Assembly (NCBI GenBank): GCA_021792555.1
Contig: JAJYUL010000011.1
Span: forward strand, 1-64,000
Length of the DNA stretch: 64,000 nucleotides
Source of the DNA: Pseudomonadota bacterium
GTDB lineage: Bacteria > Pseudomonadota > Gammaproteobacteria > Steroidobacterales > Steroidobacteraceae
Direction: 5' to 3'
The notes under the pieces are model-generated. The model was not told the DNA's origin and did no database searches. It saw nothing but the letters and a program-made list of their open reading frames with translations. Of this stretch, positions 11,271 through 30,590 are shown piece after piece. Position numbers and translations under genes: made by a program. Within the stretch, counting starts at the first letter, position 1. Each line of letters opens with the position of its first letter.

Positions 11271-14200
11271 GTTTTGCCGATTGGGTCGAGCGGCACCGCC
11301 GCTCGCTCCTGACCATCGCCTTCGCGCTCGCGCTCGCCGGGGTGTTCGCCGCCATCTCCCTTCCCGTGGGGCTGTTTCCGGTCACGAGTTTCCCGCGCAT
11401 CCGCATCGAGGTGAGCACCGGCAGCATGCCGGCGCGGCAGATGCTGGTGGACGTGACCGAGCCGCTCGAGCAGGTCACGCGCGCCATCCCGGGGGCGCAG
11501 GACGTCAGTTCCACCACCTCGCGCGGCGCGGCGCAGATCTACGTCGATTTCCCCTGGGGCTGGAACATGAACCAGGCGTTCCTTGCGGTCGACGCCGCCC
11601 TGGCCCAGGAACTGCCTTCGCTGCCGAAAGGCACCACCTACGATGTGCTGCAGATGAGTCCGACGGTCCTGATGCCGTTCGTCTCCTATGCGCTCATCTC
11701 CAAGACCGTGCCGCCGACGGCGCTGCGGCAGCTTGCGCTCTATCAGATCACCCCGCTGCTCAGCGGCATCCCCGGTGTGCGCCGGGTCGGCGTGCTGGGC
11801 GGCGCGACTCCCGAAGTGCAGGTGTCGGTGGATGAGGAGAAGCTGCGGGCATACGGCCTGACGCTCGCCGACGTCTCGCGCGCTCTGTCCTCGACAAACA
11901 TCGTCTCGGCGGTCGGGCGGCTCGAGGACAACGATCTGCTCTACCTGGCGATCAACGACAACGCCTTCACCTCGCTGCGCTCGGTGCGTCAGGTGGCGCT
12001 GCAGACCGCCGGTCACGGCATCGTGCGGCTCGGGGCCATCGCCAAGATCAGCATGGGGACCGTGCCGCAGTGGCTGCTGGTCGACGACAACGGCCGACCG
12101 GCCGTGACCTTCGACGTCTATCAGCAGGACAGCGCCGACTCGATCAGCCTGGCGCGCAAGGTCAAGGAGCGCCTGGCGGCGTTCATGAAGACGCAGCCGA
12201 AGTCGATTCGTCTTTACAAGTGGTACGACCAGACGAAGATGGTCGGCTCCTCGATCGCCGCGCTCGAGGAGGCGATCCTGATCGGCCTGGTGTTCGCCGC
12301 GCTGGTGCTGCTCGCGTTCCTGCGCAACTGGCGGGTCACCCTGGTGGCGATGATGGTGGTGCCGCTGTCGGTGCTGATCACCGTGCTGCTGCTCTCGCTG
12401 CTCGGCATGACGTTCAACATCATGACGCTCGGCGGCATTGCCGCGGCGATCGGACTGCTGATCGACGATGTGATCGTCATGATCGAGCACATCGCGCGGC
12501 GTGCAGGCGCGCCGGGGGTGGAAAACCCCCACCAGAGCGTGCTCGCCGCGGCGCGCGAGTTCCTCACTCCGCTGCTCGGCTCGAGCCTCGCCACCATCAT
12601 CATCTTCATCCCGCTCGCGTTTCTCTCGGGCATCACCGGCGCGTTCTTCAAGTTCCTCTCGCTCACCATGGCCTCGGCGCTGATCATCTCGCTCATTCTC
12701 ACCGCCTTTGCGGTGCCGGTGCTGGCGCGGGGTCTGATCGACTTCAAGACCTTCCACGATCCGTCCCACGGCAAGGAGACGCGTCTGAAGCGCCTGCACG
12801 GGCAGGCGCTGGGCCGGCTCTTCGAGCGGCCGGTGCTGCTGGTGCCGGCGCTGCTCGCGCTGCTGCTCATCGGCTTCATCGCCTACCTCAACGTCGGCAG
12901 CGGCTTCCTGCCGCGCATGGACGAGGGCGGCTTCGTGCTCGATTACCAGGCCGCGCCGGGCACCTCGCTCACCGAAACAAACCGCGAGCTCGAGGAGATC
13001 GAAAGCATTCTGCACAAGGATCCCTACGTCTACACCTTCTCGCGCCGCACCGGCGCGGGGCTGGGCGGGGATCTGAACGAGGCGTATCAGGGCGATTTCT
13101 TCGTGCGGCTGATCCCTGCCTCGAAGCGGCCGAACATCTGGTCGGTGATGGACGAGATCACCCGCAAGGTGACGCGCGACGTGCCCGGCATCCAGTTCGA
13201 TACCCATCAACTGATGGCGGACATGATCGGCGACATGGTCGGACGCAGCCAGCCGGTGGTGATCACCCTGAGTGCGAAGAACCCGGCGGTGCTCGGCGCG
13301 GTCGCGGTCCGGGTCGCCAATGCGATCAAGAAGGTGCCCGGCATCGAGCCGGCCTCGGTCAACGATGGGGTGGTGCCGGCCGGCGATGCGCTCGATATCC
13401 ACGTCGATCCGGCGGCCGCAGCGATGGAGGGACTGACCGTCGCGCAGGTGCAGAATCAGGTCTATCACTATCTGCACGGCGCGGTGGTGACGCGCTACCT
13501 CGGAACGGTGCAGGACATCGGCGTGCGCCTGTGGCTGAGTCCGCCGGAGCGGCGGATCTACCGCAGCCAGCTCGGGGATCTGCCGATCCGCGCGCCGAAC
13601 GGCCGGGTGCTGCGGCTCTCGAGCGTCGCGAAGGTGACCTTCGTGGCCGGCCAGCCGGAGCTCACCCGCAACAACCTCGCGCAGATCGTGCCGGTGACCG
13701 CGCAGATCGGCGGCGGCTACGCGCTCAGCACGACCATCGATGGCGTCAAGGCGGTGCTCGAGAAGCCGGGCCTGCTGCCGCCGGGCGTGATGTACACGCT
13801 CGGCGGGCAATACAAGCAGGAGCAGCTGGCCGTCCACGGCATGATCCGCGTGTTCGGCGCGGCCCTGGTGGCGGAGATCATCCTGCTGCTGTTCCTCTAC
13901 GAGCGCTTCACGATTCCGATCATCATCGTGTTGAGCTCGCTCATTTCCACCGGCGCGGTGTTCGTCGGACTGTGGGTGACGCGGGTGGAGCTGAACATCA
14001 CCGCCATGATGGGCATGGTGATGATCGTCGGCATCTCCACGGAGATGGCGGTGTTCTACGTGTCGGAATACCAGGCGCTCGAGAAGACGATGCCGCCGCG
14101 TCAGGCGCTGTACGAGGCGGCGCTCAACCGGCTGCGGCCGATCACCATGAGCACCCTGGCCATGATTCTGGCGCTGGTGCCGCTCGGGGCGGCGATCAGC

Positions 14201-14335
14201 GGCTCGGGCGATCAGATGCTCCAGCCGCTCGCCATCGCGATCATCGCCGGCGCGGTGGTGCAGCTGCCGCTGGTGCTGCTGGTGATGCCGGTGGTGCTGT
14301 GGCTGACCGGGCGCTTCGAGCGCGCGCCGAACTGA
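11267..14335 (+). CDS. RND efflux permease
   Basis: The 1022-residue protein starts with GTG at 11267. It has the RND plan: a first membrane helix (about 15-33), a periplasmic porter domain, a six-helix block, a second porter domain (about 555-855) and a closing helix block. The proton-relay helix 4 reads GLLIDDVIVMIEHIARR with the paired Asp residues of drug-type (HAE) pumps rather than the metal-type wording. Substrate cannot be assigned. The upstream lipoprotein channel and adaptor complete a tripartite pump, and the divergent two-component system is the likely regulator. Confidence 0.93.
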   Translation: MSFADWVERHRRSLLTIAFALALAGVFAAISLPVGLFPVTSFPRIRIEVSTGSMPARQMLVDVTEPLEQVTRAIPGAQDVSSTTSRGAAQIYVDFPWGWNMNQAFLAVDAALAQELPSLPKGTTYDVLQMSPTVLMPFVSYALISKTVPPTALRQLALYQITPLLSGIPGVRRVGVLGGATPEVQVSVDEEKLRAYGLTLADVSRALSSTNIVSAVGRLEDNDLLYLAINDNAFTSLRSVRQVALQTAGHGIVRLGAIAKISMGTVPQWLLVDDNGRPAVTFDVYQQDSADSISLARKVKERLAAFMKTQPKSIRLYKWYDQTKMVGSSIAALEEAILIGLVFAALVLLAFLRNWRVTLVAMMVVPLSVLITVLLLSLLGMTFNIMTLGGIAAAIGLLIDDVIVMIEHIARRAGAPGVENPHQSVLAAAREFLTPLLGSSLATIIIFIPLAFLSGITGAFFKFLSLTMASALIISLILTAFAVPVLARGLIDFKTFHDPSHGKETRLKRLHGQALGRLFERPVLLVPALLALLLIGFIAYLNVGSGFLPRMDEGGFVLDYQAAPGTSLTETNRELEEIESILHKDPYVYTFSRRTGAGLGGDLNEAYQGDFFVRLIPASKRPNIWSVMDEITRKVTRDVPGIQFDTHQLMADMIGDMVGRSQPVVITLSAKNPAVLGAVAVRVANAIKKVPGIEPASVNDGVVPAGDALDIHVDPAAAAMEGLTVAQVQNQVYHYLHGAVVTRYLGTVQDIGVRLWLSPPERRIYRSQLGDLPIRAPNGRVLRLSSVAKVTFVAGQPELTRNNLAQIVPVTAQIGGGYALSTTIDGVKAVLEKPGLLPPGVMYTLGGQYKQEQLAVHGMIRVFGAALVAEIILLLFLYERFTIPIIIVLSSLISTGAVFVGLWVTRVELNITAMMGMVMIVGISTEMAVFYVSEYQALEKTMPPRQALYEAALNRLRPITMSTLAMILALVPLGAAISGSGDQMLQPLAIAIIAGAVVQLPLVLLVMPVVLWLTGRFERAPN

Positions 14336-17219: not shown

Positions 17220-17585
17220 TCAGACGCCGCAAAATTCGTCGTGCAGGACTCCCAGCAGGCGCGTGACGATGCCCGGAGCGAGCGAGTAGTAGACCGTCTG
17301 CGACTGGCGCTCGGTGCGCACCATGCCCGCCTTGCGCAGCACCGCCAGATGCTGCGAGAGGGCAGACTGGCTGAGATTCACCCGCTCGTTCAGCTGACCG
17401 ACCGACAGGGGCTGGGGCACGAGATGGCACAGGATCATGAGGCGCTGTTCGTTGGCCAGTGCGCGCAGCACGCCGGCCGCCTCAAGGCAGTGTGGCTGCA
17501 TGTCACGGGCGGCGTGCAGCAGCGAGGCGCCCGCCGGCGCCCCGGGCTTGCGGCTTCTCGGTACGGATGGCTGCGGCGTTCGCAT
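17220..17585 (-). CDS. ArsR-family repressor of the BigR/SqrR (persulfide-sensing) type
   Basis: The 121-residue winged-helix protein reads ALANEQRLMILCHL, LSVGQLNERVNLSQSALSQHLAVLR and QTVYYSLAP, ending DEFCGV. Cys53 and Cys119 are 66 residues apart, the same spacing as the redox pair in BigR and SqrR, which form a tetrasulfide link on exposure to persulfide and leave DNA. Metal-binding motifs of ArsR/SmtB are absent. A third Cys (33) lies in the N-terminal extension. The gene is divergent from a run that includes DUF2892 and SQR, the usual BigR/SqrR targets, and two inverted repeats overlap the promoter between them. Confidence 0.88.
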   Translation of the reverse strand: MRTPQPSVPRSRKPGAPAGASLLHAARDMQPHCLEAAGVLRALANEQRLMILCHLVPQPLSVGQLNERVNLSQSALSQHLAVLRKAGMVRTERQSQTVYYSLAPGIVTRLLGVLHDEFCGV

Positions 17586-17623
17586 GCCAGGGCAGTCTAA
17601 ACCACCATGCAGGAAATTACCAC

Positions 17624-17651
17624 TTGCTAAATTAGCAGTCGCTAATATACT
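17624..17651 (+). promoter_or_regulatory. Promoter of the SQR-RND operon
   Basis: TTGCTA (17624-17629, 4 of 6 to the -35 consensus) and TATACT (17646-17651, 5 of 6 to the -10 consensus) are separated by 16 bp. The DUF2892 start at 17700 follows with a GGGAGAAA-like ribosome site (about 17689-17695). This is the most AT-rich stretch in the neighbourhood. Both inverted repeats listed next lie between and over the two boxes. Confidence 0.7.
17625..17645. promoter_or_regulatory. Overlapping palindromes, probable ArsR/BigR operator
   Basis: TGCTAAATTAGCA (17625-17637) is a perfect palindrome with six-base arms and one central base. TTAGCAGTCGCTAA (17632-17645) is a second palindrome with five-base arms around AGTC. 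They share the TTAGC half-site at 17632-17636, giving three TTAGC/GCTAA half-sites in 21 bp. They occupy the -35 to -10 spacer, an ideal place for a repressor, between the divergent ArsR gene and its presumed target operon. Confidence 0.72.
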
Positions 17652-17699
17652 AGCGGCCCGTCGGCTGGTCCGAGCCGACGCATTTCGTGGGAGAAAGTC

Positions 17700-17900
17700 A
17701 TGTCAGTCGATCGGTTGGTATTTGCCTTTGCGGGCAGCTTCGTGTTGATCGGTGTGCTGCTGGCGTGGCTCGCGAGCCCCTGGTGGCTGCTCGTGCCCGC
17801 GTTCGTCGGGGTGAACATGCTGCAGTCCGCCTTCACGGGCTTCTGCCCGCTGGCGAGGATTCTGAAGCGCTTCGGCGTGAAGCCCGGCGCAGCGTTTTAA
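17700..17900 (+). CDS. DUF2892 inner-membrane protein (YgaP-type membrane domain)
   Basis: The 66-residue protein has two membrane helices (about 7-24 and 28-45) and the family ending [22 protein letters not shown], which is the DUF2892 signature. This domain often occurs fused or next to rhodanese (as in YgaP) and is a standard member of BigR/SqrR regulons. Its Cys49 lies in the FTGFCP motif. It is the first gene after the operator and is followed 17 bp later by the RND adaptor. Role: probably handling of sulfane sulfur at the membrane; not proven for any homologue I can name. Confidence 0.9.
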
Positions 17901-17917
17901 GCCGAGCGGAGTGCACG

Positions 17918-18997
17918 ATGAACGGACGTGGACTTCTGGCGGTTGTCGCGGCGTGCGCTGCAGCTGGCGCACTGGCCGCCTGCAGTGCCAAGCATGCGCC
18001 CCCGCCGCGCTCGAGCGCTGAGCCGCTTGCCTCGGTGCGTGTCGAGTTCGAGCGCACGGCGGCCGAGCAGCGCTTCGACGGCGTCGTGCAGGCGGTCGAT
18101 CGCGCGACCCTGACCGCACAGACCGCCGGCCGCGTCGCGGCGATCTACCACCACGTCGATGACTTCGTGCCCTCCGGCGCGCTGCTGATGCGGCTGCGCG
18201 CGACCATCCAGCGTGCGGATCTTGGCCAGGCCCGCGCCGCGCTGCGTGCCGCGCAGGCCCGCGCCACGGAAGCGCAGAAGCGCTATCGGCGCATTCGCGC
18301 CATGTACGAGCAGCAGGTCGTGCCGAAGGCGGATCTGGACAGCGTGACCGCCGCGCGCGATGCGGCCGTGGCGGCGCTCAACAGCGCGCGTGCGGCGGTC
18401 GCGAGCGCAACCGAAGGCGTCGACTACACCGAGATCCGTGCCCCGTATGCCGGAGTGCTGACCCGGCGGCTGGTCCAGGTGGGCGAGGCGGTCGCCCCGG
18501 GCACGCCATTGCTCGGATTTGCCTCGCTGCGCTCGCTGCGTGTCGTGGTGAGCATTCCGGAGTCGCTCGCCAACACCGTGCGGCGCGTGGGCCGGGCGAC
18601 CATCTCCTTCGACGACAGGACCATTCCCGCGGCGCACGTTACGGTCTTTCCGGTCGCCTCGCCCCAATCCAACACCTTCAAGGTGCACCTGGCCATGCCC
18701 GGCCCGGTGCCGGGCCTGTACCCGGGAATGGTGGTGCGCGCCGCCTTCGACACCGGCGAGCACGCACAGTTGCTGGTGCCGCAGCGCTCGATCGTGCGGC
18801 GCAGCGAGGTCACGGCCGTGTACCTGGTGCAACCGAACGGCGAGACGCTGCTGCAGCAGGTGCGGCTCGGAGAGCCGGTGGGTGAGCGCATCGAGGTCCT
18901 CTCGGGTCTGACCCCGGGGGAGCGGGTGGCGCTCGATCCGATCGCGGCCATGCGGCGGCTCGAGCCGTTCCCGGTGCTCACCGGGAGCGCGCAGTGA
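17918..18997 (+). CDS. RND efflux periplasmic adaptor lipoprotein
   Basis: The 359-residue protein starts at ATG 17918. It has a signal peptide with lipobox LAAC (Cys about 23), the first lipoyl half (VDRATLTAQTAGRVAAIYHHVDDFVPSGALLMRL), a coiled-coil hairpin (about 100-165), the second half (YTEIRAPYAGVLTRRLVQVGEAVAPGTPLLGF), then barrel and membrane-proximal domains. Layout is that of RND adaptors (AcrA family). Its stop overlaps the permease GTG (GTGA at 18994-18997). It belongs to the ArsR-controlled run with SQR. Confidence 0.9.
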   Translation: MNGRGLLAVVAACAAAGALAACSAKHAPPPRSSAEPLASVRVEFERTAAEQRFDGVVQAVDRATLTAQTAGRVAAIYHHVDDFVPSGALLMRLRATIQRADLGQARAALRAAQARATEAQKRYRRIRAMYEQQVVPKADLDSVTAARDAAVAALNSARAAVASATEGVDYTEIRAPYAGVLTRRLVQVGEAVAPGTPLLGFASLRSLRVVVSIPESLANTVRRVGRATISFDDRTIPAAHVTVFPVASPQSNTFKVHLAMPGPVPGLYPGMVVRAAFDTGEHAQLLVPQRSIVRRSEVTAVYLVQPNGETLLQQVRLGEPVGERIEVLSGLTPGERVALDPIAAMRRLEPFPVLTGSAQ

Positions 18998-21900
18998 GCA
19001 CGGAACTCGGATTCAGCGGGCGGCTCGCCCGACGCTTCCTGCACAACCAGATCACCCCGCTGCTGGCGCTGCTCGCGGTGGGGCTCGGCCTGTTCGCCCT
19101 CGCGATCACCCCGCGCGAGGAAGACCCGCAGATCAACGTCACCTTCGCCAACGTCTTCATCCCGTTCCCGGGAGCCTCCCCGCGCCAGGTCGCCAGCCAG
19201 GTGACCACGCCGATGGAGCAGGTGCTCGGGGAGATCTCGGGCGTGAAGCACATCTACTCCGAGTCGCGCCCGGGGCTCGCGGTGCTCACGGTGCAGTACG
19301 AGGTCGGCCAGCCGCGCAACCAGGCGATCGTGCGTCTGTACAACGCCATCTACTCGCATCGCGACCTGTGGCCGCCGAACGCCGGGATATTGCCGCCGCT
19401 CATCAAGCCGATGGGCATCGACGATGTGCCGATCGTCGCGCTGACGCTGTGGACGAGCGACCAGAACCGCGGCTCATACCAGCTCGGCCAGGTGGCCCAG
19501 GCGATCGAGACGCAGCTAAAGCGCGTTCCCGGCACCCGCAAGGTGTACACCATCGGGGCGCCGCAGAGCATCGTGCGCGTGCGGCTCGAGCCTGGCCGGC
19601 TCGCCGCCTACGGCCTTGCCCCCGGGGACATCGCCCGCGCCCTGCAGGCGGCCAACATCGTGCGCCAGGCCGGCGATGTGATCGGCTCCGACCGCGTCGA
19701 GCCGGTGCAGGCCGGCGTATTCCTCGCCGGCGGCGACGATGTCGCGAACCTGGTCGTCGGTGTGCACGACGGCAAGCCTGTGTACCTCACCGACGTCGCC
19801 GACGTGTCGGCCGCGCCCGACGCGCCGCAGTCGTACGTCTGGTTCGGCACCGGGGCCGGCGCGGCCGTGCGTCACCTGCCCAAGGTGAGCTATGCCCCGG
19901 CGGTGACCATCGCCATCGCCAAGAAGACCGGCACCAATGCGAGCACGATCGCCGATGCGGTGATACAGCGCCTGCATGAGCTGCGCGGCACGTACATACC
20001 CGCAGGCGTGCACGTCACCGTCACGCGCAACTACGGGCACACCGCCGATGAGAAGGCGATGGAGCTCATCGAGAAGCTCATCGAAGCGACCCTCTCGGTC
20101 GTGCTGCTCGTGATGCTCACCATGGGCCGACGCGAGGCGGTGGTGGTCGGCGCCGCGGTGGGTGTCACCCTGATGGCGACGCTGTTCGCCTCGTGGGCGT
20201 GGGGCTTCACCATCAACCGGGTGTCGCTGTTCGCGCTGATCTTCTCCATCGGCATCCTTGTCGACGATGCGATCGTGGTGGTGGAGAACGTCCACCGCCA
20301 CATGCGTCTCGGCGGGGGCACGCTGAGCGATCTGATTCCGGTGGCCGTCGATGAGGTGGGAGGTCCGACCATTCTGGCCACCTTCACGGTCATCGCGGCA
20401 CTGATGCCCATGGCCTTCGTCGGCGGCATGATGGGGCCGTACATGAGCCCCATCCCGATCAACGCCAGTTCCGGCATGCTGATCTCGCTCGGGGTGGCGC
20501 TGATGTTCACCCCGTGGCTGTGCCGCAAGCTGCTCGGCAAGAGTCACATCGATCCCACCGAGCACCGCCAGCAGCTGCCGCTCCTGCCGCTCTTTCAGCG
20601 TCTGGTCGGACCCTTCCTTGCCGGCCCCGAGGGGCGCCGCCGCCGCCGCTGGCTGTACGGCGGCATCGGTGCGGCGATCCTCGTGGCCGTGAGTCTGGTG
20701 GTCACCGAGGCGGTGGTGCTGAAGATGCTGCCCTTCGACAACCGCTCCGAGTTCCAGGTAGTGGTCAACATGCCGGTGGGCACGACGGTCGAGTCCACCG
20801 CGCACGTGCTCGATGCGCTCGCCCAGGTCGTCGCGCGGATGCCCGAGGTCAGCGATTATCAGGTTTACGCGGGAACTGCGGGCCCGGTGAACTTCAACGG
20901 CCTGGTGCGTCAGTATTATCTGCGCAGCGGTCCGCGCCTCGGCGAGATCGACGTGCAGCTCGTGCCGAAGAGCGCGCGCAGTCTGCAGAGCCACGCCATC
21001 GCGATGGCGGTGCGCAAGAAGCTCGCGCGGGTGGCGCGCCGCTACGGCGCGGCGATCTCCGTGGTGGAGATCCCGCCCGGTCCGCCGGTGCAGGCGCCCA
21101 TCGTGGCCGAGATCTACGGGCCGAGCTACGCCGAGCAGCGTCAGATCGCCCTCGCCGTGCACAAGGACTTCGAGGATACCGCCGGCATCGTGGACATCGA
21201 CGATTCGGTCGATGCGCCCGCGCCGCGTCTGCTCCTTGAGGTCGAGCGGCAGAAGGCGGCGCTGCTCGGGGTCTCGCAGGAGCAGATCGCGCGTACGCTG
21301 TCGCTGGCGCTCTCCGGGTACGACGCCACCTATGTGCACATCGGCCGGGAGCGCAAGCCGATTCCGGTGCGGCTCGAACTCTCGCCGGCTGATCAGGCGC
21401 GCATCTCGAAGGTGCTGGCGCTGCGCGTGCGCGCCGCGAGCGGCGCGCTGGTGCCGCTCGCGGCGCTGGTGCGGGTCGAGCACAAGACCTGGGAGCAGCC
21501 GATCTTCCATCGCGACCTGCTGCCCGTCACCTATGTGACGGGGGACATGGCCGGGCGGATCGACAGCCCCCTCTACGGAATGTTCGAGATCGCCGCGAAG
21601 CTGCGCCGCCATCCGCCCGCCGGGATGCATGTCGTGCAGCACTTCGTCAGCCCGCCTTCCAATCCCAACGAGTTCGCGATCAAGTGGGGCGGGGAGTGGC
21701 AGGTCACGTACGACACGTTCCGCGACATGGGCATCGCCTATTCGGTGGGGCTCGCGCTGATATACCTGCTCATCGTGGCGCAGTTCGGCTCGTACTTCGT
21801 GCCGCTCATCATCATGGCGCCGATTCCGCTCACCGTCATCGGCGTGCTGCCGGGGCATGCGCTCTTCGGGGCGCAGTTCACCGCGACATCGATGATCGGC

Positions 21901-22236
21901 ATGATCGCGCTCGCCGGCATCATCGTGCGCAATTCGATTCTGCTGGTCGATTTCATCGACGGGGCGGTGCGCTCGGGCTTCTCGCTCGAGGAAGCGGTGG
22001 TGCGCGCCGGGGCGACCCGCGCCAAGCCGATCGCGCTCACGGCCGTGGCGGCCATGCTCGGGGCGGTGTTCATCCTGTCCGACCCGATCTTCAACGGCCT
22101 GGCGATATCGCTGCTGTTCGGGGTCTTCGTCTCGACGCTGCTGACGCTGGTGGTGATCCCGGTGCTGTATTACGCCTATCTGAAGCGGCGGGAGGCGCGC
22201 GCGGCGCGCGCAAGCGCGGAGGGCGCCCATGAGTGA
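18994..22236 (+). CDS. RND efflux permease of the SQR operon
   Basis: The 1080-residue protein has the full RND layout with 12 membrane helices and two large periplasmic loops. Helix 4 reads SIGILVDDAIVVVENVHRHM, the drug-type proton-relay motif with both Asp residues. The N-terminus has REEDPQINVTFANVFIPFPGASPRQVASQVTTPMEQ, typical of a subgroup of efflux permeases whose substrates are often unknown. It is translationally coupled to the adaptor. The next gene is SQR and the last is a TolC protein, so the pump is complete within one operon. Confidence 0.94.
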   Translation: MSTELGFSGRLARRFLHNQITPLLALLAVGLGLFALAITPREEDPQINVTFANVFIPFPGASPRQVASQVTTPMEQVLGEISGVKHIYSESRPGLAVLTVQYEVGQPRNQAIVRLYNAIYSHRDLWPPNAGILPPLIKPMGIDDVPIVALTLWTSDQNRGSYQLGQVAQAIETQLKRVPGTRKVYTIGAPQSIVRVRLEPGRLAAYGLAPGDIARALQAANIVRQAGDVIGSDRVEPVQAGVFLAGGDDVANLVVGVHDGKPVYLTDVADVSAAPDAPQSYVWFGTGAGAAVRHLPKVSYAPAVTIAIAKKTGTNASTIADAVIQRLHELRGTYIPAGVHVTVTRNYGHTADEKAMELIEKLIEATLSVVLLVMLTMGRREAVVVGAAVGVTLMATLFASWAWGFTINRVSLFALIFSIGILVDDAIVVVENVHRHMRLGGGTLSDLIPVAVDEVGGPTILATFTVIAALMPMAFVGGMMGPYMSPIPINASSGMLISLGVALMFTPWLCRKLLGKSHIDPTEHRQQLPLLPLFQRLVGPFLAGPEGRRRRRWLYGGIGAAILVAVSLVVTEAVVLKMLPFDNRSEFQVVVNMPVGTTVESTAHVLDALAQVVARMPEVSDYQVYAGTAGPVNFNGLVRQYYLRSGPRLGEIDVQLVPKSARSLQSHAIAMAVRKKLARVARRYGAAISVVEIPPGPPVQAPIVAEIYGPSYAEQRQIALAVHKDFEDTAGIVDIDDSVDAPAPRLLLEVERQKAALLGVSQEQIARTLSLALSGYDATYVHIGRERKPIPVRLELSPADQARISKVLALRVRAASGALVPLAALVRVEHKTWEQPIFHRDLLPVTYVTGDMAGRIDSPLYGMFEIAAKLRRHPPAGMHVVQHFVSPPSNPNEFAIKWGGEWQVTYDTFRDMGIAYSVGLALIYLLIVAQFGSYFVPLIIMAPIPLTVIGVLPGHALFGAQFTATSMIGMIALAGIIVRNSILLVDFIDGAVRSGFSLEEAVVRAGATRAKPIALTAVAAMLGAVFILSDPIFNGLAISLLFGVFVSTLLTLVVIPVLYYAYLKRREARAARASAEGAHE

Positions 22237-22302
22237 CGGGTGCCGTTTTGCGCCGGTTCGGCGAGTCACTCGCCTCGGAGAGTCTCTCCATTGGGGGTTG
22301 TC

Positions 22303-23583
22303 ATGGCACACATAGCCATCATCGGAGCCGGTCTCGGCGGAGTGCCGTGCGCGTACGGCATGCGCAAGCGCCTCGGCAGGGCGCATCGCGTCACGCTCAT
22401 CGGTTCCTCGCCTTACTTCGAGTTCACCCCGTCGAACCCCTGGGTGGCGGTCGGCTGGCGCGATCAGACTCAGACCCGCGTGGCCATGCGCGAGCCGCTC
22501 GCGGCCCACGGGATCGACTGGATCGAACAGCCGGTCCGGACGATCGACGCCGAGCACCGGGTGCTCACGCTGAACGACGGCAGCACGGTCGATTACGATT
22601 ACCTGGTGATCACGACCGGCCCGAAGCTCGCCTTCGAGGAGGTGCCGGGGCTCGGGCCGGACGGGCATACCGAGTCGATCTGCACGCAGGCGCACGCGGT
22701 GCGCGCCTGGGAGAACTACCAGAAGTTCCTGCGCGAGCCCGGGCCGGTGGTCATCGGAGCGGCGGCCGGCGCGAGCTGCTTCGGCCCGGCCTACGAGTTC
22801 GCGATGATCGTCGATGCGGATCTGCGCCGGCGCAAGCTGCGCGACCGGGTGCCGATCACCTTCGTCACCAGCGAGCCGTACATCGGCCACATGGGCTTGG
22901 GCGGCGTCGGGGACAGCAAGGGCCTGATGGAGGCGGAGCTGCGCCAGCGGCACATCAAGTGGATCACCAACGCGAAGGTCAGCTCGGTGGCCGAGGGTGC
23001 GATGAGCGTCATCGAGCACGGTGAGGACGGCAAACCGAAGCAAGAGCATCAGCTCGGCTTCCGCTTCGCCATGGTGCTGCCGGCGTTCAAGGGCGTCGAG
23101 GCGGTCGCGGCCGTGCCAGGGCTGTGCAACCCGCGCGGGTTCGTGCTGATCGACGAGTTCCAGCGCTCGACGAAGTACCGCAACATCTTCTCCGCCGGCG
23201 TGTGCGTGGCGATTGCGCCGGTGGAGCCGACCCCGGTGCCGACCGGCGCGCCGAAGACCGGCTACATGATCGAGTCGATGGTCTCGGCGATCTGCGAGAA
23301 CATCGCCGCGGACCTGGAGGGCCGGCCGGCCGAGGCGCGCGCCACCTGGAACGCGGTGTGCCTGGCGGATTTCGGCGACACCGGCGCGGCGTTCGTCGCG
23401 CTGCCGCAGATCCCGCCGCGCAACGTAACCTGGACCAAGGTGGGCAAGTGGGTGCACCTTGGCAAGATTGCGTTCGAGAAGTACTTCCTGCGCAAGGTGC
23501 GCACCGGCTCGATCACGCCGGTCTACGAGCGCTATGTGCTGAAAGTCCTCGGCATCACCTCGTTGAAGGGCACCGAGTCATGA
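22303..23583 (+). CDS. sqr: Sulfide:quinone oxidoreductase, type I-like
   Basis: The 426-residue flavoprotein starts at MAHIAIIGAG (ATG 22303 after GGGGG), with the dinucleotide-binding motif GAGLGGVPCAYGM. Three cysteines, C127 (ESICTQAH), C159 (GASCFGPAYEFAM) and C353 (NAVCLADFGD), match in position and wording the catalytic set of the Acidithiobacillus ferrooxidans enzyme (C128, C160, C356). TFVTSEPYIGHMGLGG is also typical. The C-terminus has amphipathic Trp/Lys-rich helices (WTKVGKWVHLGKIAFEKYFLRK) suited to membrane docking. It oxidises sulfide to sulfane sulfur and passes electrons to quinone. Its stop overlaps the TolC start, so it sits inside an efflux operon, which is odd. Confidence 0.92.
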   Translation: MAHIAIIGAGLGGVPCAYGMRKRLGRAHRVTLIGSSPYFEFTPSNPWVAVGWRDQTQTRVAMREPLAAHGIDWIEQPVRTIDAEHRVLTLNDGSTVDYDYLVITTGPKLAFEEVPGLGPDGHTESICTQAHAVRAWENYQKFLREPGPVVIGAAAGASCFGPAYEFAMIVDADLRRRKLRDRVPITFVTSEPYIGHMGLGGVGDSKGLMEAELRQRHIKWITNAKVSSVAEGAMSVIEHGEDGKPKQEHQLGFRFAMVLPAFKGVEAVAAVPGLCNPRGFVLIDEFQRSTKYRNIFSAGVCVAIAPVEPTPVPTGAPKTGYMIESMVSAICENIAADLEGRPAEARATWNAVCLADFGDTGAAFVALPQIPPRNVTWTKVGKWVHLGKIAFEKYFLRKVRTGSITPVYERYVLKVLGITSLKGTES

Positions 23584-24884
23584 GGCAGCGCAGCCGGATG
23601 CCGGTGGCGGCGATGCTGCTCGCCGCTAGCGCGGCGCTCGCCCTGCAGGCGCACGCCGAGACGCTCGAGGAGGCCTGGCGGCTCGCTGCGGCGCGCAATC
23701 AAACGCTGGCCGCCGCAGCTGCCGAAGTGCAGGCGGCGCGCGCGGGTGAGCGGGCCGCGCGCGATCGGCGCTGGCCGAGCATCGAGGCCGAGGCGAGCTA
23801 TACGCATCTCGGCCAGGCGCCGGAACTCGACGTGGTCACGCCGACGCTCGCATTCCGCTCCGGGCCGATCTTCAAGGACAATCAGTACGTCAGCGGCACC
23901 GTGCAGATGCGCGTGCCGCTGTACACGGGCGGTGCGATACGCGCCGGCATTGCAGCGGCGCGCGCGGGTCTGACCGGTGCATCCGCCGAACGGACCGCCA
24001 CCGCCGCTGATGTGAAGCTCGCCGTCGCGCAGGCGTACGTGACCGTGCTGCGCGCCCAGCGCCAGCTGCGCGTCGCGCAGGCAAGCGTAACCAGTCTTGC
24101 GGCGCATCTGCGCGACGTCGAGGCGATGTTTCACCGGCAGATGGTCGCCAAGAGCGACCTGCTCGCCGCCGAGGTCGCGCTTGCCAACGCACGCTCGAGC
24201 AAGGTGAGCGCGCAGGATGCCGTCGAGGTCGCGCAGGAGGAATACAACCGGCTGCTCGGCGAGCCGCTCAGCCGCGTGCCGCATCTCGATCCGGTCCTGC
24301 CGACGTTTTCCGTGGACGCTCTGCCGCTGAAGGAGCTCGTGCAGCGCGCGCTCGCGAGCCGTCCTGAGCTGCGCGCACTTGCCGCGCGCGCGGGCGCACT
24401 GGCGGATCGGGCGCGGGCGGCGGGCGCCAGCCGCCTGCCGCACATCGCGGCCATGGGCGGCTATACGCATTTCGACAACCAGATCCTCAACCGCGAGAAT
24501 TTCTCCTCCGTGGGCGTCGGCTTCACATGGAAGCTGTTCGACGGCGGCGCGGCGGCCAACGAGGCCGACGCGCTGCGCGCGCGCAGCCGCGCCGACCGGA
24601 GGCGGCTCGCCGATCTGCGCTCGCGCATCGAGCTCGAGGTGCAGGCGGACTGGCTCGCGCTCGGGGCGGCGCGCGAGCGCGTGAGCGCCTCGCGCGCTGC
24701 AACCGCCCAGGCCGCGGAGAACCTGCGCATCTCGCGTGAGCTCTACGGAGTGGGACTGGCCTCGAACACCCAGGTGCTCTCGGCGGTGACGCTGCGCACC
24801 CAGGCCGAGGAGAATTACAACAACGCGGTGCTCGATGCCGCGCTCGATCAGCTGCGCCTCGCCTACGCGGTCGGCGCCCTGTGA
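23580..24884 (+). CDS. TolC-family outer membrane efflux protein of the SQR operon
   Basis: The 434-residue protein starts at ATG 23580, overlapping the SQR stop (ATGA). It has a signal peptide (about 1-27, ending AHA) and no lipobox. ETLEEAWRLAAARNQTLAAAAAEVQAA opens the first TolC repeat, and RPELRALAARAGALADRARAAGASRLPHIAAMGGY opens the second. The C-terminal LYGVGLASNTQVLSAVTLRTQAEENYNNAVLDAALDQLRLAYAVG wording is typical of TolC/OprM channels. It completes the adaptor-permease-SQR-channel operon. Confidence 0.9.
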   Translation: MRQRSRMPVAAMLLAASAALALQAHAETLEEAWRLAAARNQTLAAAAAEVQAARAGERAARDRRWPSIEAEASYTHLGQAPELDVVTPTLAFRSGPIFKDNQYVSGTVQMRVPLYTGGAIRAGIAAARAGLTGASAERTATAADVKLAVAQAYVTVLRAQRQLRVAQASVTSLAAHLRDVEAMFHRQMVAKSDLLAAEVALANARSSKVSAQDAVEVAQEEYNRLLGEPLSRVPHLDPVLPTFSVDALPLKELVQRALASRPELRALAARAGALADRARAAGASRLPHIAAMGGYTHFDNQILNRENFSSVGVGFTWKLFDGGAAANEADALRARSRADRRRLADLRSRIELEVQADWLALGAARERVSASRAATAQAAENLRISRELYGVGLASNTQVLSAVTLRTQAEENYNNAVLDAALDQLRLAYAVGAL

Positions 24885-24897
24885 GCGCGCAGCGCGC

Positions 24898-26121
24898 CTA
24901 GCCGAGCTTCAGCAGCTGGGCGATCAGCGCATCGGTCTGGATCGGCTCGCCGCTCAAGGCCATGGCGAGCAGCTCGCCGCCGAGCAGCGGCAGCGTGAGC
25001 AGCACATCGGGCCGTGTGCGGGCGATGCGCCCGGTGTTGCGTGTGTCGCTGACGGCCGCGACGGTGCGCAGCTCGGGATTCATCTCCTTGGCGGCGAGCA
25101 CCACGAATGCGTTGTAGGAATCGTCCTCGCTGAGGGCGAGCACCGCGCGCGCCTTGGCGATATCGGCCTTGCGCAGAATCTCGGTGTCGCTGCCGTCGCC
25201 CACGATCACATCCTCGGTGTGCTCCTCGCCCTCCGGCGGCTTTTCCGCGACGATGCTGGTGACGAGCAGGCCACGGGCCACCAGGGCCCGCGCCGTGTCT
25301 TGAGCGAGCGGGCCGTCGCCCACCACGATGACATGGGACACGCGTTTCATCTTGCCTATTCTCCGCGGCTGCAGCAGGTTCATCAGCCGCTTGTCGATCA
25401 AAGGGCCTGCGATGGCCGGCAGGGCGGTGGCGAACACGCCGAGGCCGAGCATGATGAGCGAGATCGTGAACACCCGGGCGTCGCTCGCGACGGGCGTGAT
25501 ATCGCCGTAGCCGACCGTCGACATGGTCTCTACCGCGAAGTACGTGGCGTTGGTGAGATTGGTGATGTGCGGCTGGAAGCCGCTGCCGAGGACCAGCGCC
25601 CCGAACGTGCCGTAGCCGAGGGTCAGCAGCAGGCCGGTGAGCGCGTACAGCGTCGCGGTGGCGAGGCTTGCGCGCGTGAAGGCGCCGCGCGCGGCAAGCA
25701 GCAGCAGCAGCTGCAGGATGCTGAACCCCTGCAGCAGCCGCGAGGCGCTCGAGAGCGGCGAGAACTCCAGTGCCACCATGGCGAGGGTGAGCAGGAACGC
25801 CAGAAGCCACGCGAGGCGCGAGCGCCAGAGCATGCCGAAGGCCACCAGCACGAGCAGCACGCCGATGCCGATGTGCGAGGCGGCACCGAGCTGCAGCACG
25901 CTGACGCCGCCGGCCAGGGTGCTGATCGGCGGAGTGGCGAGCTCGTGCAGCAGCGGACGCAGCGAGCCGGAGGCGAGCAGGATGTGCAGCAGGCCCTGCG
26001 CGCCGACCAGGACTGCGAGCGGCACCTGCGGAAACCACGCGCGCGTATGCAGCAGACGGGTCATGCGCTGCCATTCCTTGCGCAGCCAGGTGCGCTCGGC
26101 GGCGAACCATTCGCGTTTCAT
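24898..26121 (-). CDS. Ion channel with TVGYGD filter and TrkA-N domain (Kch-like)
   Basis: The 407-residue protein has several N-terminal membrane helices (about 30-175), a pore loop with the K+ selectivity filter TVGYGD (in YFAVETMSTVGYGDITPV), a last helix (FTISLIMLGLGVFATALPAIAGPLIDKRL), then a Rossmann-type TrkA-N/RCK domain starting VSHVIVVGDGPLAQDTARALVARG. This is the E. coli Kch plan. It should pass K+ and respond to a bound nucleotide or ligand. It is convergent with the TolC gene (13-bp gap) and divergent from the TauE/SafE gene. Confidence 0.9.
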   Translation of the reverse strand: MKREWFAAERTWLRKEWQRMTRLLHTRAWFPQVPLAVLVGAQGLLHILLASGSLRPLLHELATPPISTLAGGVSVLQLGAASHIGIGVLLVLVAFGMLWRSRLAWLLAFLLTLAMVALEFSPLSSASRLLQGFSILQLLLLLAARGAFTRASLATATLYALTGLLLTLGYGTFGALVLGSGFQPHITNLTNATYFAVETMSTVGYGDITPVASDARVFTISLIMLGLGVFATALPAIAGPLIDKRLMNLLQPRRIGKMKRVSHVIVVGDGPLAQDTARALVARGLLVTSIVAEKPPEGEEHTEDVIVGDGSDTEILRKADIAKARAVLALSEDDSYNAFVVLAAKEMNPELRTVAAVSDTRNTGRIARTRPDVLLTLPLLGGELLAMALSGEPIQTDALIAQLLKLG

Positions 26122-26334: not shown

Positions 26335-26411
26335 AGGATCCGCGCGCCCGGGACGTCCGCCGCGGCGTGCCGCGGGCGATTCGATGTGCTGTTCGTGCAG
26401 GGCGGTCTCGC

Positions 26412-27200
26412 ATGACCTGGCCGCTTGCGCTGTTCGCGGTGTTGGGCGGCGCGGTCGCGGGGCTGTCGCTCGGGCTGCTCGGGGTCGGCAGTTCCATTCT
26501 GGTCGTGCCGCTGCTCGTTTACGGGATGCACGTTTCCCCTCATCTGGCGATCGGCACCTCCACGGTGGCTGCGACGGCCAGCGCGCTGTGGAGCCTGAGC
26601 GCGCATGCGCGCGCCGGCACGGTGCGCTGGCGGTACGGCGTAACGTATGCGCTCGCGAGTGTGCTCGGCGCGGTAAGCGGCGCCCACCTGGGCAAGGCGA
26701 CCGACAGCCGCATCCTGCTGGCGCTGCTCGGCCTGCTGATGATGGCGGTGGCCGGGCTGATGCTTCGCGGCTCGTGGCGCGCGCGTCCGGCGCAGCACGC
26801 CGCCGAACGGCGCGAGCGCAGCTGGGTGCTGCCGGTGCTCGCGGCGACGGGCTTCGGCATCGGTTCGCTGGCGGGCCTGGTCGGTGTCGGCGGCGGCTTT
26901 CTCACCGTGCCGGCGCTGATGTTCACCACCGGCATGCCGCTGCTGAACGCGGTGGGCTCCTCGCTGGTGTCGGTCGCGGCGGTGTCGGCCACCACGGCGG
27001 CAAGCTACGCCAGCTCGCAGCTGGTCGAGTGGCCCATCTCGGTACTGCTGATGATCGGCGGGGTGCTCGGCGGTTATGTGGGGGTGAAGCTCGCCGGCGT
27101 GCTCGCGGCGCGCAAGCGCGCCCTCACCATTCTCTTCAGCGTCGTGGTGGCCTTCGCCGGACTCTACATGGTGCTGCACGGGTTCGCGAGCCTGCGCTGA
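26412..27200 (+). CDS. Sulfite exporter TauE/SafE family membrane protein
   Basis: The 262-residue protein starts at MTWPLALFAV (ATG 26412). It has about eight membrane helices in two related halves, each with a Gly-rich motif: GLSLGLLGVGSSILVVPLLV near the start and GSLAGLVGVGGGFLTVPALM in the middle. This repeat is the TauE/SafE hallmark. Family members export sulfite, sulfoacetate or thiosulfate-related anions. Its closeness to the SQR operon suggests a sulfur role, but the K+ channel lies between them and there is no shared operon. Confidence 0.9.
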   Translation: MTWPLALFAVLGGAVAGLSLGLLGVGSSILVVPLLVYGMHVSPHLAIGTSTVAATASALWSLSAHARAGTVRWRYGVTYALASVLGAVSGAHLGKATDSRILLALLGLLMMAVAGLMLRGSWRARPAQHAAERRERSWVLPVLAATGFGIGSLAGLVGVGGGFLTVPALMFTTGMPLLNAVGSSLVSVAAVSATTAASYASSQLVEWPISVLLMIGGVLGGYVGVKLAGVLAARKRALTILFSVVVAFAGLYMVLHGFASLR

Positions 27201-27359
27201 GGGCCGCCGAGCGTGCGACGGAGCGCTGCGCCGCCGCGGCCGGCATGCCGCGCGGCCGCTGGCGGCGCTGGTGCGTCTCCGGTACAGTCCTGCGCTTTCG
27301 GCCAATGCCGCGCGCCGGTACGGATCGCCTGCCCCGGGGCGCGAAAGCGAGGTTGCGCG

Positions 27360-30300
27360 ATGAAGGTTGTCAGTTCCTTGGTGGCTGCGGCGGCTTGTCT
27401 GACGCTGGCATCTCCGTTTGCACTGGCCGCGCAGGCCGGTCCCCAGCAGGAGAATTCCCACGGTCGCACGCTGCTGCCGATGCCGCTCAGCAGCACGTTT
27501 CATTTCCGTCAGCTCGGGCCGGCGCTCGCCGGCGGGCGGGTGACCGCCGTGGCCGGGGTGCCCGGCAATCCGGACATCTATTATGTGGGCGGTGCGGACG
27601 GGGGCGTATTTCGCACCGAGGACGGCGGGATCACCTGGAAGGCGCTCTTTCAGCACCGGCCGGTGGCCGCGATCGGCGCGCTGGCGGTCGATCCGCACAA
27701 CCCTGCGGTGGTGTGGGTCGGCACCGGCGAGGCCAATATCCGCAACGACATCTCCTTCGGCGACGGGGTGTACGAGTCGACCGACGGGGGCGTGCACTGG
27801 CGCCACCTCGGCCTTGACGGCACGATGCAGATCTCGCGCATCCTGATCGACCCGCACCATCCGGACACGGTGTTGGTCGGCGCCATGGGCGATCCGTGGA
27901 AGAACAGCACCGAGCGGGGCGTGTACCGCACCACCAACGGCGGGGCGAGCTGGCAGAGGGTGCTTTACGTCGGTCCCGATGTGGGCATCGCGGACATGGC
28001 GATGGACCCGCGCAACCCCAACATCGTGTATGCAGCGACCTACCGCTTCCGGCGCGAGCCCTGGCACTATTCGGCCGGCGGCCCCGAGGATGCCATCTAC
28101 AAGTCGGTCGACGGCGGGCTGAGCTGGAAGCGCCTCGCGGGTCACGGTCTGCCGAGCGGGGCGGTGGGGCGCATCGGGCTTGCCGTGGCGCCGAGCGCGC
28201 CCAATGTGGTGTACGCGGTGATCGGCACCCATCAGGGCGTGCTGTGGCGGTCGGAGGATTCGGGCGAGAACTGGACGCTGGTCAGCAAGGATCAGTCGGT
28301 CGATGCGCGGCCGTTTTATTTCTCGCACATCGCGGTCGATCCGAAGAACCCCAATCATCTCTTCGCGCTCTCGATGCGCCTGCTCACCTCGTACGACGGC
28401 GGGCGCACCTGGCACAAGATCGCCCGCTCGATCCACGTGGACAATCACGCGATCTGGATCGATCCGACCGGCAGCGGCCGGATCATCGAGGGCAACGACG
28501 GAGGCGTGGCACTGTCGCTCGATAACGGCCGGCACTGGGCGTTCGTGCACAACCTCGCCATCGAACAGTTCTATCACGTTGCCGTCGGCGGCGGCTTCTT
28601 CTATCAGGTCTGCGGCGGGCTGCAGGACAACAATTCCTGGTGCGGCCCGGGCGTGAGCAAGGACCCGAGCGGCATCTCGAGCCGCGCGTGGTACGGCTTC
28701 AACGGCGATGACGGCATCTACGGCATGCCGGCCGCCGACAATCCGAACCTGATCTACAACGAGGGGCAGAACGGGGCGTACTTCATCTACAACCGCTCCG
28801 AGGAGCAGCTGCACGACATCCAGCCTTACCCGCGCGACGACAACGGCCGGGGCGCGGACGGTGCGCGCTACCGGTTTGCCTGGGAAGCGGCGTTCGCGGT
28901 CTCGCCCGCGAACCCCAAGGTGCTCTACGCCGGCGCCAATGTGCTGTTCAAGAGCAGCAACCGCGGGCGCACCTGGAAGGTGATCAGTCCCGATCTGACG
29001 CGCAACGACAGGGCCAAGCAGGGCCCCTCCGGGGGGCCTGTGATCCAGGACAACTCCGGCGCCGAATACTATGACGCGATTCTGACCATCAGCCCAGCCG
29101 AGTCCGACCCGCAGGTCATCTGGGTCGGCACCGATGACGGGCTCGTGCAGGTGACCCGCGATGGGGGCAAGCACTGGAGCAACGTCACGGCGAACATTCC
29201 GCACCTGGCCGGCTGGGGCCGCGTCGAGTCGATCGACGTTTCCCCGACGGACCCCGGCAGCGCGCTGATCGCGGTGGACCGGCACTTCAGCGGCGACTTC
29301 CGGCCGTATCTGTACCGTACGAGCGATTACGGCAAGCATTGGACATCTGTGAGCGGCAACCTGCCGTCCGACGTCTATGCGCACGTCGTGCTGCGTGACC
29401 CACATAACCCCGACCTGTATTACGCAGGCCTGGAGAATGGCCTGTACGTGTCATGGGACGCCGGGCGCAAGTGGTACAAGTTCGGTCTCGGCCTGCCGGA
29501 TGCGGCCGTTTACGACCTGGCCCTGCAGCGCCGCACCGACTCGCTGGTGGTCGCGACGCACGGCCGCGGCGTGTGGATCCTCGATGACCTCACGCCCTTT
29601 GAGCAGTGGAACGCGCACGTGGCGCACAGCGCGCTCACGCTGTTCAAGCCCGAGGATGCGGTGCGCTTCTGGCCGTTCCAGCAGACCGAGTCGATGGGCG
29701 ATGGCGCATTCTTCGGCCAGAACCCGCATTACGGTGCGGCGTTCAACTACTATCTGGCGCACTCGGTGAAGCGGCCCGGGGAGCTCATCATCACCAACGC
29801 CAGCGGCCGGGTGGTGCGCATCTACAAGGGTCTGCACAAGGGCAAGCCCGTGCCGATGACTCCGCAGCCGGCCGGGGCGGCGCCGGCCGCGAACGGCGAG
29901 GTGCCGTGGGTGCCGGGCCAGGCCGGTCTGCACCGCATCTACTGGAACCTGCACGCGCAAGGTCCGGTGCGCTGGAGCTCCGCGCCGCAGTTCAACCGCG
30001 GACCGCACAACGGGGCGCTGTTGCCGCCGGGCACCTACACCGCGACCCTCAAGATCGGCGGGGCGAGCGCCTCGCAGACCTTCAGGGTGGTCAATGATCC
30101 GGCTTCGCACGGCACGCTGGAGGGCATGACCGAGCGTTATCGGGTGACCGAGGCGGTGCTGCACGAGATCTCGCAGATCGACGTGGCCCTGAACCGGCTG
30201 CATGCGCTGGCCGTGCAGCTGAAGGGCCTGAAGGCGGCGGTGCGGGGGCTGCCCGAGCAGCGCTCGGCCGACGCGGCGATCGCCCAGCTCGAGCGGGCCC

Positions 30301-30590
30301 GTCACGCGGTGCTCCTGGAGCTCACCAGCGACGCCGGCTCATCGGAGTCGACGCTGTGGGTGCCGGATGGCATTCACGAGAAGCTGATCTCGCTGGAGGA
30401 GCTGCTGTGGGGCTCGGACAGGCCGGTCGATGCGGCCACGCTGCACGAGAAGGCGCACTACGACGCCGAGTACCGCAGCGCGCTCGGCGCTTACGATGAG
30501 TTCCTGAGCACGGCGGTCGCGAGCTTCAATCAGACCATGACCGGCGAGGGCCTGTCCGGAGTGGTCGGCGGGACGCCGCTCTCGCCCTGA
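27360..30590 (+). CDS. Large exported beta-propeller protein with Asp-box repeats (sortilin/BNR-like)
   Basis: The 1076-residue protein starts at MKVVSSLVAA with a signal peptide (about 1-25). Residues about 35-770 hold at least eleven Asp-box repeats of the form S/T-x-D-x-G-x-x-W, such as TEDGGITWKAL, STDGGVHWRHL, TTNGGASWQRV, SVDGGLSWKRL, SEDSGENWTLV and SYDGGRTWHKI. This predicts one large or two stacked propellers, as in sortilin Vps10 and BNR proteins. The C-terminal 250 residues form an Ig-like then helical region (TERYRVTEAVLHEISQIDVALNRLHALAVQLKGL). Catalytic residues of sialidases are not evident, so a glycosidase label would be unsafe. Role unknown; probably periplasmic or outer-surface. 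Confidence 0.85.
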   Translation: MKVVSSLVAAAACLTLASPFALAAQAGPQQENSHGRTLLPMPLSSTFHFRQLGPALAGGRVTAVAGVPGNPDIYYVGGADGGVFRTEDGGITWKALFQHRPVAAIGALAVDPHNPAVVWVGTGEANIRNDISFGDGVYESTDGGVHWRHLGLDGTMQISRILIDPHHPDTVLVGAMGDPWKNSTERGVYRTTNGGASWQRVLYVGPDVGIADMAMDPRNPNIVYAATYRFRREPWHYSAGGPEDAIYKSVDGGLSWKRLAGHGLPSGAVGRIGLAVAPSAPNVVYAVIGTHQGVLWRSEDSGENWTLVSKDQSVDARPFYFSHIAVDPKNPNHLFALSMRLLTSYDGGRTWHKIARSIHVDNHAIWIDPTGSGRIIEGNDGGVALSLDNGRHWAFVHNLAIEQFYHVAVGGGFFYQVCGGLQDNNSWCGPGVSKDPSGISSRAWYGFNGDDGIYGMPAADNPNLIYNEGQNGAYFIYNRSEEQLHDIQPYPRDDNGRGADGARYRFAWEAAFAVSPANPKVLYAGANVLFKSSNRGRTWKVISPDLTRNDRAKQGPSGGPVIQDNSGAEYYDAILTISPAESDPQVIWVGTDDGLVQVTRDGGKHWSNVTANIPHLAGWGRVESIDVSPTDPGSALIAVDRHFSGDFRPYLYRTSDYGKHWTSVSGNLPSDVYAHVVLRDPHNPDLYYAGLENGLYVSWDAGRKWYKFGLGLPDAAVYDLALQRRTDSLVVATHGRGVWILDDLTPFEQWNAHVAHSALTLFKPEDAVRFWPFQQTESMGDGAFFGQNPHYGAAFNYYLAHSVKRPGELIITNASGRVVRIYKGLHKGKPVPMTPQPAGAAPAANGEVPWVPGQAGLHRIYWNLHAQGPVRWSSAPQFNRGPHNGALLPPGTYTATLKIGGASASQTFRVVNDPASHGTLEGMTERYRVTEAVLHEISQIDVALNRLHALAVQLKGLKAAVRGLPEQRSADAAIAQLERARHAVLLELTSDAGSSESTLWVPDGIHEKLISLEELLWGSDRPVDAATLHEKAHYDAEYRSALGAYDEFLSTAVASFNQTMTGEGLSGVVGGTPLSP

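Follow-up and report, generated by a model that had tools for sequence, protein, structure and literature searches.

A predicted sulfane-sulfur-responsive operon joins a sulfide:quinone oxidoreductase to an RND-TolC pump in a member of the Steroidobacteraceae and recurs in other proteobacteria

The 64,000-nucleotide stretch of DNA analysed here (the window), from a gammaproteobacterium of the Steroidobacteraceae, lies on contig C8 of a 3.51-Mb genome in 84 contigs. It contains a gene for an ArsR-type sensor that is divergent from genes for a DUF2892 protein, a periplasmic adaptor (membrane fusion protein, MFP), a permease of the resistance-nodulation-division (RND) superfamily, a sulfide:quinone oxidoreductase (SQR) and a TolC-family channel (Table 1). 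Open frames are found for all six at the positions that a first-pass annotation of this DNA had given, and the two overlaps on which it had relied, GTGA between adaptor and permease and ATGA between SQR and TolC, are indeed present and are both 4 nt long. DUF2892 and the adaptor are spaced by 17 nt, and a 66-nt gap without overlap separates the permease stop from the SQR start. From these overlaps and spacings the genes from DUF2892 to TolC probably constitute one transcription unit. A short palindrome at 22277-22289, GGAGAGTCTCTCC, lies just 5' of the SQR start; the related loci L014 and L015 retain it, and L017 does so in part (L and G numbers designate loci and genomes, respectively). An Rfam scan of the window gave nothing above the gathering scores.

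Table 1. Coordinates and diagnostic characters of the features discussed
Feature	Location	Strand	Characters
ArsR/SmtB repressor, HlyU/BigR/SqrR type (assigned)	17220..17585	-	121 aa; Cys33/Cys53/Cys119
Predicted operator/promoter, TTGCTAAATTAG-N6-CTAATATACT	17624..17651	+	ATTAG-N6-CTAAT inverted repeat plus CTAAATTAG; -35 TTGCTA, 16-nt spacer, -10 TATACT
DUF2892 / YgaP-like transmembrane protein	17700..17900	+	66 aa; Pfam YgaP-like_TM 48.5 bits, cut-off 25.3
RND periplasmic adaptor (MFP)	17918..18997	+	TIGR01730 199.4 bits, cut-off 94.9; N-terminal lipobox-like LAAC by eye
RND permease, HAE-1-like	18994..22236	+	1080 aa; D424/D425 in transmembrane helix 4 (TM4), R979 in TM10
Type I SQR (assigned)	22303..23583	+	426 aa, ATG at 22303; Cys127/159/353
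TolC-family outer membrane channel	23580..24884	+	434 aa
TauE/SafE exporter family gene, possible outlying operon member	26367..27200	+	relatives 43% identical lie directly 3' of TolC in L061 and L065
dsrABEFHC-K cluster with a DsrL-like gene	7992-19873 of L162 (own-genome contig C39)		

Cys53 and Cys119 of the sensor are 66 residues apart and align with the cysteines of the HlyU structures, consistent with the BigR/SqrR-like pair that the first-pass annotation had described, and both positions are cysteine in 32/32 aligned pump-linked ArsR rows from outside the plasmid loci L148-L159. When ranked against a structure library the protein matches HlyU, NolR, an ArsR-family chain (13ct and others, which we take to be SqrR), BigR ('biofilm growth-associated repressor') and YgaV, with the metal sensors NmtR, CzrA and SmtB ranking behind these chains. 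HlyU is reported, in the available text of the source, to be a persulfide sensor (PMC10509353). We accordingly classify the ArsR protein as a BigR/SqrR/HlyU-type sulfane-sulfur sensor that is predicted to respond to persulfide and to act as a repressor. Regulation of the operon by sulfane sulfur appears highly probable, and sulfide-derived sulfur is very likely to be what throws the switch.

The segment TTGCTAAATTAGCAGTCGCTAATATACT between the sensor and DUF2892 carries a conserved ATTAG-N6-CTAAT inverted repeat, the predicted operator. It coincides with the promoter-like TTGCTA-16-TATACT; between 17000 and 25200 there are two such promoter-like sites (0.5 expected), and this is the sole one before the operon. 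With up to three mismatches the operator pattern is matched once in the window (0.00 expected) and once in the bacterium's own 3.5-Mb genome, where the reversed control gives 0. Sister loci preserve both its sequence and its spacing, as do loci whose sensors are 56-62% identical (L037, L049, L124, L125), and weaker forms are recognizable in L038, L061, L065, L075, L120, L150, L153 and L158. At up to two mismatches the pattern has 43 matches in 35 of the 276 genomes sampled from the class, against 7 for the reversed control; ArsR, DUF2892, SQR or pump genes lie within 1.5 kb of the match in 13 of the 30 loci read, and five of the matches are at pump loci (L127, which is the window, L176, L185, L186 and L187). 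A further match precedes an ArsR-SQR pair (L171, genome G189) whose pump is encoded on another contig, indicating that SQR and pump can share the operator even when they are separate. By overlapping the target promoter, at least computationally, the predicted operator resembles those of BigR/SqrR/HlyU-type repressors, although it is of the ATTAG-N6-CTAAT type whereas the SqrR consensus, as quoted in the part of PMC9774250 at hand, is ATTC-N8-GAAT.

The oxidoreductase combines a Pyr_redox_2 fold with three redox cysteines and is assigned, by these sequence characters, as a type I SQR. The three cysteines expected by the first-pass annotation are numbered correctly from the chosen ATG, and their columns (127, 159 and 353) are cysteine in 51/51, 52/52 and 52/52 of the SQRs with a residue there, the sequence from L047 ending before the first of them. 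The best structural match is nearly full length (PDB 3sz0; 552.8 bits, residues 2-423 of 426); this and related entries are presumably from Acidithiobacillus ferrooxidans.

The permease belongs to the ACR_tran family and its nearest structures are drug pumps. Its profile scores (468 bits for the drug type vs 225 for CusA/CzcA) likewise place it nearer to the drug type, yet it falls under every named NCBIfam RND subfamily cut-off (best 468 vs 1250 bits, NF033617) and far below that of CusA/CzcA (TIGR00914, 225.3 vs 701.45 bits). The TM4 aspartate pair, together with an adaptor and TolC in one unit, fits an HAE-1-like tripartite system, and the three gene products are inferred to form an assembled pump. 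In a 100-row alignment D424 is kept in 100/100 rows, D425 in 99/100 and R979 in 99/99 with a residue there. The HAE-1 permeases 6vej (which we take to be TriC), MdtB and MexB share the family and the TM4 pair; unlike them, the window permease represents a separate, strongly conserved family, and its Arg979 is as in 6vej, with a lysine in MdtB and in a MexB chimera. Other permease matches in the same genome are only 23-34% identical. The window also encodes a second RND permease (11267-14335) of an unrelated family (24% identical), which ends about 2.9 kb before the sensor gene.

In alpha-, beta- and gammaproteobacteria alike, the arrangement recurs beside this one family of permeases, in several gene orders. 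The first-pass annotation had said that a gene order confined to the strain would refute it; the genome scan instead finds ArsR-DUF2892-MFP-RND-SQR-TolC in nine further loci of the window's clade, L005-L013 (the contig of L010 ends within TolC), and in the more distant L049, L055 (TolC likewise cut), L061 and L065, whose permeases are 59-64% identical. Related orders are DUF2892-MFP-RND-SQR (L040, L042, where the contig ends after SQR, and L046) and SQR-RND-DUF2892 (L047, titled Burkholderiales). The permease scan of named genomes yielded 504 relatives, of which the best 80 were retained; among the 51 rows with more than 4 kb on both sides, which include the window and near-copies from its clade, ArsR is near the pump in 24, DUF2892 in 24 and SQR in 14. 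The recurrent partners of the pump are sulfur genes, namely those for SQR, DUF2892, rhodanese-like and TauE proteins.

In the class sample of 276 genomes the pump (at least 53% identity, three partial) is present in at least 82 and SQR in 83; among the matches listed, 48 genomes have both, 34 the pump only, 35 SQR only and 159 neither (odds ratio 6.4, kinship ignored). In 5 of the 48 genomes with both, a minimum because of contig breaks, the two are no more than about 5 kb apart, in four orders: that of the window (G000), MFP-RND-DUF2892-SQR (L117, G273), SQR-MFP-RND (L118, G140, and L119, G238) and SQR divergent from ArsR-DUF2892-MFP-RND (L120, G221). This amounts to 4 of the 47 other genomes against about 0.2 expected (rough binomial 6e-5, again ignoring kinship), and as G140 and G238 are of one genus it represents three independent cases. 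For comparison, the window's other RND permease is found at E<=1e-200 in 18 of 255 class genomes, 8 of which, its own included, have SQR; in the other seven SQR is never on the same contig, though this control is small.

Plasmids extend the picture. A pump relative occurs in 44 plasmid records, and the 12 loci fetched, mostly the best-scoring, have DUF2892 nearby in 11, ArsR in 9 and SQR in 7. Since these were chosen largely by score, and L117-L122 because SQR or DUF2892 is near the pump or a paralogue, the rows are not an unbiased sample. Plasmid arrangements include DUF2892-SQR divergent from MFP-RND-rhodanese (Azospirillum brasilense), SQR-DUF2892-TolC divergent from MFP-RND-ArsR (Novosphingobium sp. 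EMRT-2), sensor, SQR and pump together (Methylocella tundrae T4), and the pump beside MBL, YgaP-like, sulfur-transferase and ArsR genes (Paracoccus pantotrophus DSM 2944, where the FAD protein near the pump is not an SQR of this type). The FAD proteins of L154 and L157 are likewise not SQRs of this type, and a cyanobacterial relative (L159) and a locus with a 45%-identity paralogue (L122), both with SQR nearby, were not used as support because of their long branches. An Aeromonas caviae record (L158, NZ_AP026896.1) has SQR-DUF2892 divergent from ArsR near the pump; it is filed as a plasmid, and its size of 4.9 Mb points to a chromosome or a filing error. Near the pump-sensor cluster of the P. 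pantotrophus and M. tundrae plasmids (L160/L161) lie genes for cytochrome bd oxidase (cydX; cyd genes), which would fit a sulfide-tolerance island.

Phylogenetic trees suggest that SQR linkage has changed repeatedly. A permease tree of 100 rows (FastTree, with flags on long branches) shows 15 SQR-linkage changes, 13 of them forced by starred branches, with short-flank rows taken as lacking SQR; setting 22 such rows aside (78/100 counted) leaves 14 changes, 12 forced by well-supported branches. L004 (partial, 99% identical), L018 (short) and L123 (no permease) are outside this tree. In a 52-row SQR tree, which took 20 of the unlinked SQRs of the class genomes, the 19 in-line SQRs (the window, L005-L013, L021, L025, L040, L042, L046, L049, L055, L061 and L065) form one clade (SH-like approximate likelihood-ratio support, SH-aLRT, 99), and the permeases of these loci fall in one supported group of 30 rows. 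The other linked SQRs are outside the clade, and starred branches force only 2 label changes. Our own reading of these trees is that one old SQR-pump pairing and several independent ones may have occurred. The recurrent linkage and the shared operator together support membership of the pump in the persulfide regulon, which on genomic grounds we regard as well supported; that the pump forms part of the persulfide response, as the first-pass annotation had proposed, thus seems likely.

The same annotation had also suggested that the pump exports a product of SQR, and in that form this part is not supported. In five loci from three lineages (L014, L015, L017, L075 and L155) only a remnant of SQR is left, whereas sensor, DUF2892 and pump all persist. 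In L014 and L015 the frame has collapsed to the N-terminus followed by the C-terminus (remnant about 13300-13580), and L017 shows a larger deletion (remnant about 13300-13580); these three are metagenome-assembled genomes (MAGs), and the sister L025 retains SQR. Castellaniella caeni NBRC 101664 (L075) has N- and C-terminal pieces in different frames at about 8000-8350, and Rhizobium leguminosarum GLR17 (L155) only a C-terminal scrap at about 3640-3740, R. rhizogenes (L149) having the whole gene. When the genomes of L014, L015, L017 and L075, though not that of L155, were searched at E<=1e-20, they yielded no further SQR of this type, and those of L029, L037 and L038 likewise had none; remoter SQR types, or genes absent from incomplete MAGs, could have been missed. 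Similarly, the same-family loci L124 and L125 have sensor and pump but no SQR in the fetched stretch, and their genomes (G015, G244) have no match at E<=1e-100. The best reading is that SQR is a frequent but apparently dispensable partner of the pump, whose load would then probably be something that sulfide or sulfane sulfur gives rise to in general, or a co-occurring toxicant.

With moderate confidence, we favor a sulfane-sulfur-induced detoxification operon in which an HAE-1-like tripartite pump rids the envelope of a compound derived from sulfide or persulfide. Oxidation of sulfide, by SQR or otherwise, would generate cellular persulfide or polysulfide that links Cys53 and Cys119 of ArsR, and the modified repressor would leave the promoter-overlapping operator. 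DUF2892, adaptor, permease, SQR and TolC would then be produced together, assuming co-transcription. SQR would convert sulfide to sulfane sulfur and pass the electrons to quinone, while the proton-driven RND-adaptor-TolC pump may extract from the inner membrane or periplasm some hydrophobic or amphiphilic compound that builds up when sulfide or sulfane sulfur stresses the cell. The identity of the substrate is a guess, with S8 or long polysulfanes, organic polysulfides and sulfur adducts as candidates; whether it is a sulfur compound at all is, in our estimate, slightly short of an even case.

Other explanations account for parts of these data. If the pump exported the polysulfide or S0 made by the adjoining SQR, the two would form a single pathway, which would agree with their probable co-transcription as judged from overlaps and spacing, with the old pairing suggested by the single clade of in-line SQRs and single group of their permeases, and with linkage in other orders (L117-L120). 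The SQR remnants beside retained pumps, the pump loci without SQR inside the same 30-row permease group, and L124 and L125 all speak against it, and we consider both this pathway and an SQR product as the specific load doubtful. Equally improbable in our view is a broad multidrug pump for which sulfane sulfur is a mere proxy signal. The HAE-1-like family, the drug pumps among the nearest structures and the abundance of the pump family outside sulfur contexts would suit such a pump, and MarR and MexR, which are described as being under sulfane-sulfur control and as frequent repressors of antibiotic-resistance genes, offer a precedent in the accessible portion of PMC9495516; the recurrent partners SQR, DUF2892, rhodanese-like protein and TauE, on the other hand, are not predicted for a generic drug pump.

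A metal or metalloid efflux operon under a metal-sensing ArsR protein would be in keeping with the sensor's membership in the ArsR/SmtB family, its score above the cut-off of the generic metalloregulator subfamily model (NF033788, 89.2 vs 55 bits) and the export of metals by some RND pumps. The structure ranking of the sensor and the shortfall of the permease against the CusA/CzcA cut-off, beside partners such as SQR, DUF2892 and TauE, led us to set this very unlikely reading aside. Chance juxtaposition of pump and SQR in a single lineage is more remote still: flanking genes in the window's clade are also conserved, and the synteny must therefore in part be simply inherited, but the differing gene orders, the repeated linkage changes on the permease tree and the excess of adjacency in the other class genomes leave it little room.

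Several observations weigh against the detoxification operon that we favor, in addition to the loss of SQR and the kinship-blind counts given above. The sensor is below the NCBIfam BigR equivalog cut-off (80.4 vs 155 bits) and is therefore assigned to the broader persulfide-sensing type rather than to BigR proper. No convincing operator was found by ArsR in 11 rows (L039, L041, L044, L053, L057, L149, L151, L152, L155, L156 and L157), and none of the six genes is present at 17 of the 30 operator-like loci read. The pump family is widespread in the class, and many of the fetched pump loci, e.g. those of Thioalkalivibrio and Oceanospirillum, have no ArsR, DUF2892 or SQR in their flanks, which implies that sulfur need not be the general role of the family.

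The unit resembles the BigR, SqrR, HlyU and YgaV regulons in the cysteine pair of the sensor, the DUF2892/YgaP-like and sqr neighbors and the operator on the promoter, and differs from them by the addition of a full RND-adaptor-TolC pump. Pumps controlled by MexR or MarR have a MarR-family sensor and are not known to have SQR in the operon. Sulfane sulfur as the inducer, described for them in the available text of PMC9495516, is what the present system would share. A selenite system of Pseudomonas putida, as far as the portion of PMC10128140 at hand describes it, is not this system, its SqrR being a putative sigma-54-dependent regulator and its RND pump MexEF-OprN. In a literature search that mostly did not reach subscription journals, no account of this operon, its operator or its substrate was found, and a single paper, in the text available, joins sulfane-sulfur ArsR repressors with such RND pumps (PMC12423496, 2025), naming RND pumps, sqr and TauE in general terms as their neighbors. 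The link between pump and sensor is hence not wholly undescribed, which qualifies the first-pass annotation, whose author knew of no described sulfide-detoxification system with a built-in tripartite pump. Section 2.1 of that paper does not deal with the anatomy of an operon, with TolC, with an operator, with recurrent pairing of SQR and pump or with the loss of SQR.

The host itself is probably a sulfur-oxidizing bacterium, as judged from its gene content. Its genome encodes dsrA (565.8 bits) and dsrB (522.6 bits), followed by dsrE, dsrF, dsrH, dsrC and dsrK (Table 1). DsrEFH is a mark of the oxidative form of Dsr, and its presence suggests that the host probably oxidizes sulfane sulfur. We take the NAD(P)-binding protein of the cluster for DsrL, and guess from position only that DsrM, J, O and P are also encoded there. 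SoxB has no match in the genome. An ORF with the look of a helix-turn-helix protein lies inside the cluster (16806-17780 of L162) and is possibly an insertion. Among the 16 relatives searched, dsrA is above the cut-off in just the three closest (L004, L005 and L006), implying that Dsr is not required by the operon. Downstream of the operon, a divergent potassium-channel gene (24898-26121) stands between it and the TauE/SafE gene, and a large VPS10/BNR-repeat protein is encoded at 27213-30590; several loci of the window's clade have its relatives downstream.

We regard the operon as real, conserved and functionally coherent. To our knowledge, the route by which sulfane or elemental sulfur leaves Gram-negative cells is not settled, and a pump family that stands under a sensor of the persulfide type, pairs repeatedly with SQR and has an operator in common with it is a concrete candidate for that route. 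More speculatively, and in our view improbably, the permease family might be devoted to moving zero-valent sulfur (S8, long polysulfanes or organic polysulfides) out of the inner membrane or periplasm to the outside, switched by a persulfide sensor; if so, such a sulfur-secretion pump could explain the extracellular placement of sulfur by some Gram-negative sulfide oxidizers. The named carriers, namely Azospirillum brasilense, Methylocella tundrae T4 and Novosphingobium sp. EMRT-2, each with sensor, SQR and pump, and Paracoccus pantotrophus DSM 2944, with sensor and pump, make the role of the pump testable, and the recurrence of the grouping in distant bacteria opens to experiment which compounds such pumps clear from cells under sulfide stress.

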